Positions 32,214 through 42,131 of a stretch of DNA of 64,000 nucleotides are shown here, piece by piece. The position numbers were made by a program, and so were the translations under genes. Source of the DNA: Planctomycetota bacterium. GTDB lineage: Bacteria; Planctomycetota; B15-G4; SIAN01. The notes below the pieces were generated by a model, which was not told where the DNA came from, made no database searches, and saw only the letters and a list, made by a program, of their open reading frames with translations. Numbering within the stretch: the stretch's first letter is position 1; each line of letters starts with the position of its first letter. The DNA is taken from NCBI GenBank assembly GCA_016795285.1, contig JAEUIC010000022.1:124001-188000 (forward strand), written 5' to 3'.

Positions 32214-33410
32214 CTACCGGCAACCTCCTGTGGCATCGCCACCGGACGGGGGCGGTGCCGGAGTCGACGGTGGCGCCGAAGGCGACGGGATTCCCGGAGC
32301 GCCGCCCCGCTGCTCGTCCTCGTCGAGCGGTGCTGCGGGCATGACGGGTGACGGTACGGTCGCGTTCGTGCCGCTGCGTCGCTCGGCGAGCGGTGGCAAC
32401 GGGCCGCCGTAGACCTCGACCTCCGCGAAGTTGTGCTCGAACCCGATTCGCTCGATCGGCACGCTCGACAGCACTCGCAACGGCCGCGCTGAGCGCAGCG
32501 GCCGCGAGCGGCCGGACACCGCGCTCCAGCGTCGCCGGCCGCCGCGCTCGAGGAGCTCGATGTCCTCGGTCACCGGGCGCGCGTCGAGCTCGATCACGTC
32601 GTCCCCGACCCGACGCGAGTAGACCGCCAGCACCTTCGGCTGCCGGCCGAACAGGATCGCGATCGGCTCGCCGCCGAGGACATCGAGCAGCAGGCCGCTC
32701 TCGGGGAATCGCGTCAGGGGATAGGCGCGCGCGGCGTCTCCCGCTCGCACCAAGAGCAGCATCCGGTCCGCCTCGCTCGGGTCCCAGATGCGGATGCGTT
32801 GGCTCCTCGTGAACTTGGCGGTGGGAGCGAGCACGCCGCTGTTGGGATACGAGGAGAGCCACGCGCCGAGGCTGGTGGTCGCGGCGGGAATCGCGTTCAA
32901 CTGGGTGCCGGTGAAGTGCCCGGCGATGGCGATTCCCGTCGCCTGGTTCCAGCTGCTCCCGGTCTCCGTGTCGTACATCGCCATGGCGCGATCGACGAGC
33001 ACGCGGAGGTTGCCGAGCGTGAGGGTCCGGTCATCGACGGTCCGCTCGTACACGACGGCGGTTTGGCACTTCACTCACCACGTGATGGCGATCGCGACGT
33101 TGTCGATGGTGTCGTTCATCACCTCGTCGACGGCGATGCGGGCGATCGGGTAGGCGCGTACGGCGTCGCCGATCCGGACCCCCAGCACGGTCTCGTCCGT
33201 GCCGATCCCTGCTTCAAGCGCCGACTCGGGGCTCAGGATCTCGCGCAGGTCGACGTGCTGCGGCGATCGCTCGCGCAACGCCAGTCGGTTCGTGTTCGGA
33301 GCGGGTGGCCCGTACTGCTCCGGGGCGGACTGCATGAGCCGCGGCAGCGCGAACGCCGTCGACGGTGCGAGCAGGAACCAGCAGCTTGCGACGCACGCGG
33401 CAATCGACAC
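32214..33410 (-). CDS. DUF3179 protein, putative selenoprotein (Sec112 encoded by TGA at 33077-33075)
   Basis: 398 residues if the in-frame TGA is read as selenocysteine. The GTG start (33410) is preceded by GGGGGAG and gives a signal peptide. Residues up to 111 (TDETVLGVRIGDAVRAYPI, DNVAIAITW) are the N-terminal half of a DUF3179 domain. After TGA the frame continues V-K-C-QTAVVYER, SSWNQATGIA and TTSLGAW, the C-terminal half. The TGA occupies the first position of the C-x-x-C motif known for this family (often CPLC), giving U-V-K-C. A hairpin at 33042-33058 could be the SECIS. A Pro/Ser-rich tail ends the protein. It is extracytoplasmic and probably redox active; the substrate is unknown. 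The alternative is a pseudogene, made unlikely by two paralogues with the same arrangement. Confidence 0.82.
33042..33058 (-). promoter_or_regulatory. SECIS-like hairpin downstream of TGA
   Basis: Starting 17 nt after the TGA, the mRNA reads CCGUCG-UGUA-CGAGCGG, a 6-bp stem with one bulged G and a UGUA loop (G at loop position 2). The loop begins 23 nt after UGA, within the range known for bacterial SECIS elements. The identical 17-mer occurs at the same distance in the other two DUF3179 genes. Confidence 0.6.
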
Positions 33411-33533: not shown

Positions 33534-35516
33534 TCAGCGGCGGCCCGGCCCCTCCTTCTCGGGCGTCGGCGCGGGGGCGCCCGCGGGCGGGAGCGGTCCA
33601 CCGAAGAGCTCCGTCGCGGGGAAGTGGCGGTCGAGCGCGCTCCGATGGAGCGGCAGCGAAGGAAGCAGCCGCAACGGGGGCGCGCTCGAAGGGGGCTGCG
33701 CCGAGCCCGACAGGCCGTTCCAGCGCCGTGTCCCGCCTCGCTCCACGAGTTCGACGCCGTTGGGGATCAGCAGCGGCTCGAACTCGACCCCCTCGTGGTC
33801 GACCTGCCGCGACCACGCGCAGAGCAGCTGCAGCTGCCGCGAGCAGAGCAGCGCGATCGGCTCCTCGCCGAGCTGATCGTGCAGCAGCCCGCTCTCCGGG
33901 AAGCGGGCGAGCGGATAGGCGCGTGAGTGCTTCCCGACGCGCACGAGGAGCACCATCGACTCCTCGTCGCGTGGATCGAGGAAGCGCGCGCGCGGCGGCG
34001 GCTCGACGCCGACGGCCGGGGGGGCGATCACCCGGCTGTCGGGATGGGCGGCGAGCCACGCCCCGAGCGTGGTGGTGCACGCGGGCACGATCGGCAGGCG
34101 TCGCCCCGTGTTCTTGCCGCCGATCGAGATCCCCGTCGCCTGGTTCCAGCGGCTGCTCGTCCCCATGTCGTAGAGGATGCTCGCGCCGTCGACCGTGACT
34201 CCGAGATCGGAGAGCAGCATGGGCTGGCCGGCGAGCGTCCGCTCGTACGCGACGGCCGCTTGGCACTCCGCGCCGAACGTCGCGGCGATCGCGACCCCGC
34301 CGATCGTGTCGTTCAGGACCGCATCCTCGACGAGGCGCGCGAGCGGATAGGCGCGGGCGGCGCCGCCGAGGGCGATGCCGAGGACCGCCTCGTCATCGCC
34401 GAGGCCCGTGCGCCGCAGTTCCGCCGCAGCGAGCAGGTTGGTCGGAGCGACTTCGGTCGGAGCGCGCTTGCGACCGCGCTTGCGCGCTGGAGCTCGTTCA
34501 CGATCGCGCTCCTCGGCCGGAGGCGGGCTGCCGAAGAGCTCCACCGCCGCGAAGTTGCGGTCGACGCCGAGGCGATCGATCGGGAACGCCGTGAGCGGTC
34601 GGAGCGGTGGCGCGGAACGCGGCGGATCGGGGCGTCCCGAGATCGCGCTCCAGCGCCGCGTGCCGCCGCGCTCCGCCAGCTCGAGGCCCGCGCTCCCCGC
34701 GCGTGCCTCGAGCTCGACGATGTCCTCGCCGACCCGTCGCGACCACGCCGCCAGCACGCGAGGACGCCGTCCGAAGACGCACGCGATCGGCTCCTCGCCG
34801 AGCTGGTCGTGCAGCACGCCGTCGGCCGGGAAGCTCGCCAACGGGTAGGCGCGCAGCCGCTCGCCGAGCCGCACCATCAGGAACATCCCCTGGGCGTCGT
34901 CCTCTCCCCAGATCCGCGTGCGCTCGCGGTGCGACGCCTCGGTCAACGGCACCAGCACGCCGCTGTCGGGGTACGCGTCGAACCACGCATCGAGGGTCGT
35001 GGTGGTGACCGGCAGCGCGCGCAGCTGTTGGCCCTCGAGCGGGCCCTCGACGGCGATGCCGGTCGCCTGATTCCAGAGGCTCCCCGACTCGGGGTCGTCC
35101 ATGCCCAGCGCACGGTCGACCAACCGGCCGCTGTGGCCGAACGAGAGCAGCTGTCCCGCGACGTTCCGCTCGTACACGACGGCGGTCTGGCAGACCATTC
35201 ACCACGTGACGGCGATGGCGACGTTGTCGACCGTGTCGTTCATCACCTCGTCGAGGGCGATGCGCGCGATCGGGTAGGCGCGCGCCACGTCGCCGATCTG
35301 GACGCCGATCACCAGCTCGTCGCCGCCGATGCCGGCGCGCTGCGCGGCGACGCGGCCGATCACCTCGCGCGGCTCGACGAAGGTCGGCGGATGGCCGAGG
35401 CGGCGGTCCTGGCGGCGGGGCGCTGGCGCGCGGCGTTGCGTGTCGGGCAGCGGTGGTTCCGGCGCTGGCGGCTCCTGCCGCAACGCCGCCGCCACGAGGA
35501 TCGCGCTCCACTGCAC
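33534..35516 (-). CDS. Tandem DUF3179 protein, putative selenoprotein (Sec106 encoded by TGA at 35201-35199)
   Basis: 660 residues with Sec. The GTG start at 35516 has GGAG 5 bases upstream and lies 27 bp after the preceding DUF3179 gene, so they form an operon. Domain 1 (about 45-330) runs through VDNVAIAVTW, then U-M-V-C-QTAVVYER, SLWNQATGIAVEG and TTTLDAWF. Domain 2 (about 360-650) repeats the whole pattern (DEAVLGIALGGAARAYPLA, SRWNQATGISIGG, TTTLGAWL). At its equivalent site it reads G-A-E-C (Gly415, Cys418), so only the first domain carries the Sec position. Domain 2 may be structural or catalytically altered. Sequences flanking TGA are in one frame and belong to one domain. Confidence 0.82.
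35166..35182 (-). promoter_or_regulatory. SECIS-like hairpin downstream of TGA
   Basis: Same 17-nt hairpin (CCGUCG-UGUA-CGAGCGG) beginning 17 nt after the TGA of the tandem DUF3179 gene. The spacer between TGA and hairpin differs in sequence (AUGGUCUGCC...) but not in length. Confidence 0.6.
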
Positions 35517-35543: not shown

Positions 35544-36701
35544 TCAGCGCGAGCGGTCGTCGTCCGATTCGCCGCCCTGCGGCGCGGACGGCGGCGGCGG
35601 CGCGGGGTCAGGCGGCAGCGGCGCTGCGGGTGGCACCGGCGCGGCGGGCGTGGTGGCGGTGGCGCGCTCGCCATCGCCGGGCGCGGGTGGCAAGGGGCCG
35701 CCGAACAGGTCGATGCCGCGGTAGTTGAGTTCGAGGCCGGCGCGATCGATCGGCAGGCAAGCGAGCTTCCGCAGCGGGCGCGCCGAGCGCAGCGGTCGCG
35801 AGCGGCCCGAGACCGCGCTCCAGCGCCGCCGACCGCCCCGCTCGAGCAGCTCGATGTCCTCGGTCACCGGGCGCGCGTCGAGCTCGATCACCTCGGCGCC
35901 GACCCGTCGCGAGTAGGCCGCCAGCACCTTCGGGCGGCGGCCGAAGAGGAGCGCGATCGGTTCGTCGCCGAGCGTGTCGTGCAGCAGGCCGCTCTCGGGG
36001 AAGCGGGACAGCGGGTAGGCGCGCGAGAGGGGGCCGATCTGCACCACCAGCAGCAGCGAGTCCGCCACCGCGGGGTCCCAGATGCGCACCTTCTGGCGCC
36101 AGGTGAGTTCGCTCGAAGGCGCGATCACGCCGCTGTTGGGATAGGACGCGAGCCAGGCGCCGAGGCTCGTGGTCGAGGCCGGAACCACGACGAGCTGCGT
36201 GCCGGCGTGCGTTCCGGTCATGGCGATGCCGGTCGCTTGGTTCCAGCTGCTGCCGGTCTCGGCGTCGTACATCGCCATCGCGCGGTCGACGACGAAGCCG
36301 AGGTTGCCGAAGCTGAAGAGCTGCTCGCCGATCTTCCGCTCGTACACGACGGCGGATTGGCACTTCACTCACCACGTGATGGCGATCGCGACGTTGTCGA
36401 CCGTGTCGTTCAGCACCTCCTCGACGGCGACGCGCGCGATCGGATAGGCGCGCACGGCGTCGCCGACCTTCACGCCCAGCACCGTCTCGTCCGTGCCGAT
36501 GCCGTTCATCAGCGCGGCCTTCGGGCTCAGCACCTCGCTGGCGTCGAGCGTGCGCGGCGGGCGTGCGCGCGTGGCCACCACGCGGTCGTTCGGTGCCGGC
36601 GGCCCGTAGCCGTCGAGAGGGGAGTCGGGTCGCGCCCCGGGCGCCTGTGGCCACAGGAGCGAGGAGAGGACGAAGCTCGCGACACCCCCCGTGATCGGCA
36701 C
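35544..36701 (-). CDS. DUF3179 protein, putative selenoprotein (Sec111 encoded by TGA at 36371-36369)
   Basis: 385 residues with Sec. The GTG at 36701 is chosen because it has GAGGGC upstream and aligns the N-terminus (PITGGVASFVLSSLL, then YGPPAPN) with the paralogue at 33410 (SIAACVASCWFLL, YGPPAPN). A longer frame starts at 36863. The N-terminal half ends VDNVAIAITW; after TGA the frame reads V-K-C-QSAVVYERK, SSWNQATGIAMTG and TTSLGAWLAS. U-V-K-C replaces the family's C-x-x-C. It is the first gene of the DUF3179 operon, with a signal peptide and a Pro/Ala-rich C-terminal tail. It is most similar to the 32214-33410 gene; the two probably arose by duplication around the tandem gene. Confidence 0.82.
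36336..36352 (-). promoter_or_regulatory. SECIS-like hairpin downstream of TGA
   Basis: Third copy of the 17-nt hairpin, again starting 17 nt after the in-frame TGA. It encodes A-V-V-Y-E-R with identical synonymous codons in all three genes. Confidence 0.6.
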
Positions 36702-36975
36702 GACACGCCCTCGCACGGCGCGCGCGCCGTCGGCAGGACGGAGCGTCGCGCGTCGTCCCATGCGTGAGGCGGTGGATCGTGCGGCAACGGCTTCTGCTCG
36801 GACGCGCGGCGAGAGCCGGCCGGCGAAATAAAGAAATGCGCAATCGGCGGACTCGACCGGCAATCGGCCGTGGTGGCGCGCCGCAACGGCCGGCGGCGGT
36901 CGCCTCGACCTCGTCAGCGCGCGCGTGCGGAGTTAGAACGCCGCCTCTGCCTCTTCTGCCAGTGGGGGTGCCAGC
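36702..36975. promoter_or_regulatory. Divergent intergenic region with AT-rich patch
   Basis: 274 bp between the starts of the DUF3179 operon (-) and the ECF sigma/kinase pair (+). It must hold promoters for both. The only AT-rich stretch in this GC-rich setting is aaataaagaaatg near 36827-36839; I cannot assign -35/-10 boxes with confidence. Confidence 0.35.
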
Positions 36976-40958: not shown

Positions 40959-42131
40959 TCAGCGGTCGATCGGCGGCTCGGCTGAGGATTGCGTGAAGAG
41001 TGCGGCGACCGCGTCGAAGTAGCTCGCGAAACGGCCGAGCGACTCGGCCGGGTCGAGCTTGGCGAGATGGGCGCGTGCCCACTCGGAGGCGTCGGGGAGG
41101 CGGCGCGCGAGGAGCTGCTGCCGCGGGCTCAGCGACGCGAGCGGATCGCCGCCGCTCGCGAACGCGGCGTTCGACCGCGCCTGCTGCAGCGGGGTCATCG
41201 GCAGCTGCCATTGCGGCGTCGCGCGCAGTGCATGCTTGCGATCGGAGGCCTTGGCGGGCGTCGCAGCGGCCAGCGCCGCGCGGTCGTCGCTGAGGTCGCG
41301 GTTCGCGCAAGCGAGATGCTTCCACGTCGCCGCCAGCGTCGCGCGATCGACGACGCTCGGGTCGTACTCGACGAGCACGCCCTCCTCGACCTTGCCGCTC
41401 CCGCTGACCGCGGGCGGCACGTCGACGGCGCTCGTCGCGAGGACGCCGTCGAGCGCGCCGAACGCCGCCTCGCCCTCCCAGAAGCAGTACATCGTGAAGA
41501 GCGCCTGCGCGCGCGGCGCACCGAGCTCGCGCGCCAGGTTCGCGAGGTAGGCGGGGACCGGCCGCTTCGCCGCGGCGAGGGCGTCGACCAGCCGCTGCGC
41601 GACGGCGGCGCTGCTCCAGATGCCGTCGCGCCGCGCGAGGACGTCCTTGCCGCTCGCGTCGAGGAAGCGCAGCACCGGGTTGTTCCAGGCCGGCTCGGCG
41701 AAGCGGGTGCGCAGCTCGTCGTCGCGGCCCGGCTTGTTGTTGAAGACCAGCAGCGGGACGAACTCGTCTTCGAGCGCTTCGACCAGCAGCGGCTGGGAGA
41801 TCGGCCCACGGCCGAAGTCGACGCAGGTGCTTCAGCCAGGCACTTCCTGGAACAGCACGGCGAGCGGCTTGCCGGTCGCTTTCGATTGCGCGAGCGCGGC
41901 GTCGAGATCGCGCTGCCAATCGACCTGGCCGAGCTCGATCGGCGTCGTCGGCGCGCGAGCTTCTTCGGCGTCGCCGGCCGCGGGTGCCGGCGCCTCCTGC
42001 GGCACGAGCGGCGCCGCCGACGTCGGCGAGGCGCCGATCGCGGCGCAAGCGCAGCTGGCCAGAGCGAGCGTCGCCGCGTGGCGCAGGCTCGTGCTCGAGC
42101 GAGCTCTCGATCCAGTCGGTCCGGTTGCCAT
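40959..42131 (-). CDS. Exported thioredoxin-like / MsrA-like fusion, putative selenoprotein (Sec100 encoded by TGA at 41834-41832)
   Basis: 390 residues with Sec. ATG 42131 has GGAG upstream and a signal peptide (SLRHAATLALASCACAAIGASPTSAA). The first domain is thioredoxin-like: KPLAVLFQEVPG, then TGA, then S-T-C-VDFGRGPISQPLLVEALE, giving U-S-T-C where C-x-x-C is expected, followed by VPLLVFNN and WNNPVLRFLDASG. The second domain (from about 205) has an MsrA-like core: Cys216 in YCFWEGEAAF, DGVLATSA, then VLVEYDPSVVDRATL, but it is shorter than classical MsrA. A Sec-thioredoxin fused to a methionine sulfoxide reductase suggests internal electron delivery for periplasmic repair. No stop-free alternative frame explains both parts. 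Confidence 0.82.
41801..41815 (-). promoter_or_regulatory. SECIS-like hairpin downstream of TGA
   Basis: Starting 17 nt after the TGA the mRNA reads UCGGCC-GUG-GGCCGA, a perfect 6-bp stem with a GUG loop (G at loop position 1). Spacing to TGA is the same as in the DUF3179 genes although the sequence is unrelated. Confidence 0.6.

Follow-up and report, generated by a model that had tools for sequence, protein, structure and literature searches.

The question raised by this locus is whether a reading frame with a single internal TGA encodes one selenoprotein and, if so, which chemistry that protein may carry out. The window, by which we mean the whole stretch of 64,000 nucleotides of a Planctomycetota contig that was analysed, had received a first-pass annotation placing at 40959-42131 an exported selenocysteine (Sec) thioredoxin fused to a methionine sulfoxide reductase of the MsrA type. 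The interval was right and has to be read on the minus strand; a plus-strand reading of it gave no sensible protein. Translation from 42131 to 40959 with the TGA read through yielded 390 residues with a single internal U, followed by the terminal TGA (40961-40959). As had been claimed, the one in-frame TGA (codon 41834-41832) falls on the first residue of the thioredoxin C-x-x-C motif, read as VPG-U-S-T-C, and the sequences YCFWEGEAAF, with Cys216, and VLVEYDP are both present in the translation. The N-terminus has a basic and a hydrophobic segment and, in addition, an Ala-rich region resembling a cleavage site, and the N-termini of nearly all homologues are hydrophobic. The export signal was judged by eye and by hydropathy, and on these grounds the proposed location outside the cytoplasm appears probable. 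The parts of the gene are listed in Table 1.

Table 1. The gene and its parts, with positions in the window.
Feature	Position	Strand	Basis or remark
Whole CDS	40959..42131	minus	390 aa, Sec at residue 100, NCBIfam NF041383 member
Probable export signal, residues 1-40 (MATGPTGSRARSSTSLRHAATLALASCACAAIGASPTSAA)	42012..42131	minus	sequence and hydrophobic homologue N-termini
Thioredoxin_7 domain, residues 71-159, DsbD-gamma/DsbH-like fold	41655..41921	minus	Pfam and structure comparison
Sec-UGA codon, U100 of VPG-U-S-T-C	41832..41834	minus	translation and homologue alignment
Cys103, partner of U100, invariant (32/32)	41823..41825	minus	alignment
SECIS-like hairpin with a 6-bp stem, UCGGCC-GUG-GGCCGA, loop 22 nt downstream of UGA	41801..41815	minus	folding and criteria
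MsrA-derived domain, residues 204-340	41112..41522	minus	profile, model, Foldseek
Cys216 (YCFWEG), at the position of the catalytic Cys of MsrA; Sec takes its place in 14/32 homologues	41484..41486	minus	alignment
Glu250, corresponding to the acid catalyst of MsrA (Glu94 in E. coli, Glu55 in Clostridium oremlandii), invariant (32/32)	41382..41384	minus	alignment
Cys275, possible resolving cysteine, present in 27/32	41307..41309	minus	alignment
C-terminal helical tail, residues 341-390	40962..41111	minus	secondary structure of the model

The annotation also referred to an "unrelated gene" with a TGA, which is likely to be a member of a tandem array of three DUF3179 genes on the minus strand (32214-33410, 33534-35516 and 35544-36863). 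Each of these has one in-frame TGA in a T-W-U-x-x-C motif (the codons start at 33077, 35201 and 36371), and the middle gene contains two DUF3179 copies, the second of which lacks Sec. DUF3179 selenoproteins have already been catalogued (PMC13188914). Elsewhere in the same genome, an exported thioredoxin-like gene (L011, C38:68920-69351, minus strand), apparently with two thioredoxin domains, also has an in-frame TGA (FFTSDG-U-G-P-C).

A scan of the NCBIfam models gave a full-length match to NF041383 (positions 1-285 of 287, 343.1 bits, E=1.5e-102, cut-off 275), the "VPGUxxT family thioredoxin-like (seleno)protein, type 2", also known as hypothetical protein OS_HP5, whose VPG-U/C motif is present in the window protein. 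In a 2026 review the VPGU-motif family appears as a high-confidence predicted selenoprotein with one Sec (PMC13188914). Genes of this type have not gone unnoticed, since a curated NCBI model exists for exactly such a protein, as does the review entry. Because it belongs to a catalogued family, the selenoprotein of the window is not itself new; the gene adds a new member to that family. As to the MsrA ancestry of its second half and the two-Sec form described below, neither is mentioned in the sources read, and both are new relative to these, though perhaps not in general.

Homologues were sought in up to 392 genomes belonging to the phylum of the window, and 38 of these gave a strong match; the set consists of draft genomes from one phylum. 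Thirty-two full-length proteins were aligned, and a 33rd, L067, contains Ns. The codon at the first redox site (site 1) is TGA in 22 of the 32 aligned proteins and encodes Cys in the other 10. The genome of the window encodes tRNA-Sec (76 bits), SelB (336 bits) and SelA (478 bits), and tRNA-Sec was detected in 21 of 25 genomes carrying the gene. The four gene-bearing genomes without a match are G220, whose copy is of the Cys/Cys form, and G065, G164 and G173, which have TGA forms and are drafts 77-84% complete.

Since Rfam at gathering thresholds retrieved nothing in the window, the SECIS element was tested by folding and by comparative counts. The bacterial SECIS model requires a hairpin 16-37 nt after the UGA with a loop of 3-9 nt containing G(G/U) and a stem of 4-16 bp, at most -7.5 kcal/mol (PMC13188914). 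The hairpin in the window agrees with this description (6 bp, loop GUG, 22 nt, -8.9 kcal/mol). The fold energy of the 51 nt following the TGA is unexceptional (z -1.29), so that the case for a SECIS rests on the criteria and on comparison. Of the 38 Sec sites, 22 passed the strict criteria, among them the one in the window; none of 28 Cys sites did, against a background of 7.7% among random 60-mers from the window. The commoner subtype of the family likewise shows a covarying hairpin of its own at site 1, in which 76.8% of cells are paired vs. at most 45.5% in slid controls.

As far as the letters of the genomes allow one to judge, every mark of a selenoprotein gene is present, and the TGA at VPG-U-S-T-C is not there by chance. 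One could still argue that it is a real stop, with two separate genes, a broken pseudogene or a sequencing error behind it, as the internal TGA resembles a stop and GTG codons are found downstream. Against this stand the exchange of TGA for Cys at the same codon, the SECIS and the Sec machinery, as well as ten Cys/Cys homologues in which one frame runs from the thioredoxin through the MsrA-like part with no stop. A real stop is therefore very improbable. Because the Cys/Cys homologues are unbroken, the thioredoxin and the MsrA-derived domain must be fused in a single protein, as the first reading of the locus had it. The counter-sign named there, homologues with the halves as separate genes, did not refute the fusion, since ten homologues span both domains.

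The N-terminal half matches Thioredoxin_7 over residues 71-159 (Pfam, E=6.6e-9), and a Foldseek search with the whole model retrieved DsbH, DsbD-gamma and AGR folds for it. The VPGU thioredoxin half can also be found where the MsrA core is missing: it stands alone in L132. In L129 and L130, a VPGU/EPGU Sec thioredoxin is followed by a helical-repeat-like region in place of the MsrA-derived domain. A further family member, L131 (the same gene as L037), has lost the MsrA core and retains what flanks it, the Sec thioredoxin on one side and the helical tail of the C-terminus on the other.

For the C-terminal half, a profile search had been suggested as a check of MsrA similarity, and such a search found it. 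The MsrA similarity is weak when a single sequence is used and decisive when profiles and structure are. The PMSR profile (PF01625) matched the window sequence at residues 210-269 with E=0.016 and 15.9 bits, which is below the Pfam gathering cut-off of 23.7; taken individually, 32 of 32 members matched it at E up to 1, the best at 1.9e-6. When hhalign was used to compare the profile of the C-terminal domain with one built from 26 MsrAs of related genomes, a probability of 99.3% and E=2e-20 were obtained, and the comparison with solved MsrAs in the PDB gave E=1.5e-11. The C-terminal positions of NF041383 also match true MsrA genes elsewhere, for example G010:C199 (E=1.7e-8), itself a PF01625 match. 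The AlphaFold2 models are confident (pLDDT 93.5 for the whole chain and 96.9 for the domain), and the top Foldseek matches of the domain are all MsrAs, the best being the seleno-MsrA of C. oremlandii (TM 0.77 by query). Profiles and the predicted structure thus show the C-terminal half to be derived from MsrA.

The active site of C. oremlandii MsrA consists of GCFWG together with Tyr47, Glu55, Gln89, Tyr90, His137 and Tyr140 (PMC4333827). Invariant in 32 of 32 family members are the nucleophile (C or U at 216), the F or Y next to it, Trp218 and Glu250. In the joint alignment the family lacks the loops that carry Tyr47 and Gln89-Tyr90, and with them the oxygen-binding tyrosines (Tyr47 and Tyr90 in C. 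oremlandii, Tyr82 and Tyr134 in E. coli). His137, of the methyl pocket, is replaced in the family, and a tyrosine near Tyr140 is kept by many members and missing from the window protein. Because of these losses of loops and of His137, the substrate pocket differs. We rejected an alternative alignment of the DxKYY motif with loop Asp129-Tyr134 of the E. coli enzyme, as both the joint alignment and hhalign place DxKYY at the C-terminal YHQxY segment. Three ordinary MsrA genes of related genomes (L088, L090 and L094) have Sec at the catalytic position (GUFWG), and L094, which belongs to the C. oremlandii type of MsrA, also has a Cys close to the position of Cys275.

These features bear on the substrate. 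A true periplasmic methionine-S-sulfoxide reductase, acting on peptides like the thioredoxin-MsrA part of PilB, would fit the MsrA ancestry, the invariance of the nucleophile, Trp and catalytic Glu, and the precedent of PilB, where a thioredoxin is fused to MsrA outside the cytoplasm. It accords poorly with the deletion of both oxygen-binding-tyrosine loops and the loss of the methyl-pocket His, with the PMSR score of the window protein and with a normal, separate MsrA encoded elsewhere in its genome. We consider such an enzyme rather unlikely; with both oxygen-binding tyrosines gone, standard MsrA activity is disfavoured, and ordinary peptide methionine-S-sulfoxide would be a doubtful substrate. 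The first-pass assignment of methionine sulfoxide reductase activity thus appears to go beyond the evidence. A sulfoxide-like group, or some other small group containing oxidised sulfur, is the probable substrate.

The most telling fact about the family is a second Sec at the MsrA-type position (site 2) in nearly half of the homologues. Of the 33 full-length homologues, 15 have a TGA codon where the window gene has that for Cys216; in the window gene, the only Sec is that of site 1. The site-2 Sec forms share a 7-bp hairpin that starts 19 nt after the UGA and has an AGUU or GGUU loop. In these forms 91.8% of cells are paired and four pairs are changed on both sides, i.e., in a compensatory manner, whereas the same columns in Cys forms are 39.7% paired, no better than shuffles. 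A SECIS hairpin is found at most site-2 Sec sites and is missing from all 18 site-2 Cys versions. Sec and Cys are thus exchanged at both sites, with at least five changes at site 1 and at least three at site 2 as the minimum on the tree, and the data support selection for thiol or selenol chemistry at both. The combinations at sites 1 and 2 among the 33 full-length homologues are UU in 15, UC in 8, CC in 10 and CU in none. The absence of CU in this set (loci L010-L041 and L064-L069), although site-2 Sec is common, may be partly explained by shared ancestry. Position 275 lacks a Cys in 5 of 32 proteins, 3 of which are two-Sec forms. Since gene callers that miss either TGA would truncate them, two-Sec members are probably under-reported in number.

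The second Sec also bears on the idea that the protein is mainly a thioredoxin-type disulfide reductase, whose MsrA-derived domain binds a client or partner and contributes its Cys or Sec as a docking or relay thiol. In several genomes the VPGU half is found with no MsrA core, either by itself, joined to helical repeats or followed by just the helical tail, so the thioredoxin may have a job other than serving site 2, and the loss of the MsrA substrate loops would suit a binding role. Two observations argue instead for real chemistry at site 2 and make a disulfide reductase of this kind unlikely: 15 of the 33 homologues have Sec there, with SECIS hairpins dedicated to it, and the Glu of the catalytic type is invariant.

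A second Sec at the MsrA active site of many relatives makes a built-in, two-site electron relay likely. We lean towards an oxidoreductase that is exported, being either periplasmic or anchored in the membrane, and that combines two redox sites in a single chain, where Sec100-Cys103 recharges the MsrA-type site. Site 1 would be a DsbD-gamma-like thioredoxin using Sec100-Cys103, and site 2 a derivative of the C. oremlandii type of MsrA, in which Trp218 and Glu250 accompany Cys216, a position taken by Sec in many relatives. An oxidised sulfur compound would be attacked by site 2, leaving a sulfenic acid on Cys216 or a disulfide with Cys275; the Cys216-type thiol or selenol would then be re-reduced by Sec100-Cys103 of the same chain, and site 1 may in turn be recharged by a membrane reductase of the DsbD/CcdA type. 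A UxxC thioredoxin has to be re-reduced from outside, so the self-contained repair enzyme proposed at first is unlikely; the genome does encode a DsbD_TM protein that could supply the electrons. For such a relay PilB, a thioredoxin-MsrA-MsrB chain, is a precedent (PMC12288474). Further caution is called for since the MsrA of C. oremlandii is recycled by glutaredoxin rather than thioredoxin (PMC4333827). More tentatively, these proteins may form a widespread exported two-Sec family with a selenium-to-selenium relay in cis and a substrate other than peptide methionine sulfoxide.

The surroundings of the gene give no clue from an operon to the pathway, since in an all-against-all comparison of 22 regions of about 8-13 kb essentially just the gene itself and frames overlapping it recurred, and no conserved neighbour gene was found within 6 kb. 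The family has so far been named for its thioredoxin motif only, and the recognition of a redox-active MsrA derivative in its second half, and of Sec at both sites in many members, offers a concrete idea of its chemistry. The electron relay in cis is a prediction that can be tested in one recombinant chain. If the substrate is not methionine sulfoxide, the active site of MsrA would here have been adapted to a new compound of oxidised sulfur.

Several known systems resemble the window protein in part. NF041383 shares the VPGU motif and matches it over the full length, while its name and the review entry (PMC13188914) are silent on the MsrA ancestry and on a second Sec. The type 1 model, NF041382, matches the thioredoxin half (positions 12-154, 120 bits), far under its cut-off of 350, and leaves the C-terminal half unmatched. 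The DsbD gamma domain and DsbH-like thioredoxins have the fold of the N-terminal half (1vrs and 2fwh, TM 0.75 by target; 2ju5, DsbH); unlike these, the window protein has Sec at the position of the first Cys and lacks a membrane domain in its chain. PilB and MsrAB1 (thioredoxin-MsrA-MsrB, in Neisseria and Fusobacterium) are likewise exported, with an N-terminal thioredoxin preceding an MsrA-type domain, and take electrons from DsbD or CcdA, as the window protein may do. In contrast to them, its thioredoxin is of the Thioredoxin_7/DsbD-gamma type with Sec, its MsrA core is trimmed, and no separate match to an MsrB domain after the MsrA part was found in the Pfam or NCBIfam scans. Closest to the C-terminal domain in fold is the C. 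oremlandii seleno-MsrA (PDB 4u66 and 4lwj; PMC4333827), with which it shares Sec or Cys in xCFW, the catalytic Glu and a helical C-terminal part. The window family differs from that enzyme in lacking the Tyr47 and Gln89-Tyr90 loops and His137, and in having a Sec thioredoxin in front and, in most members, a possible resolving Cys (275).
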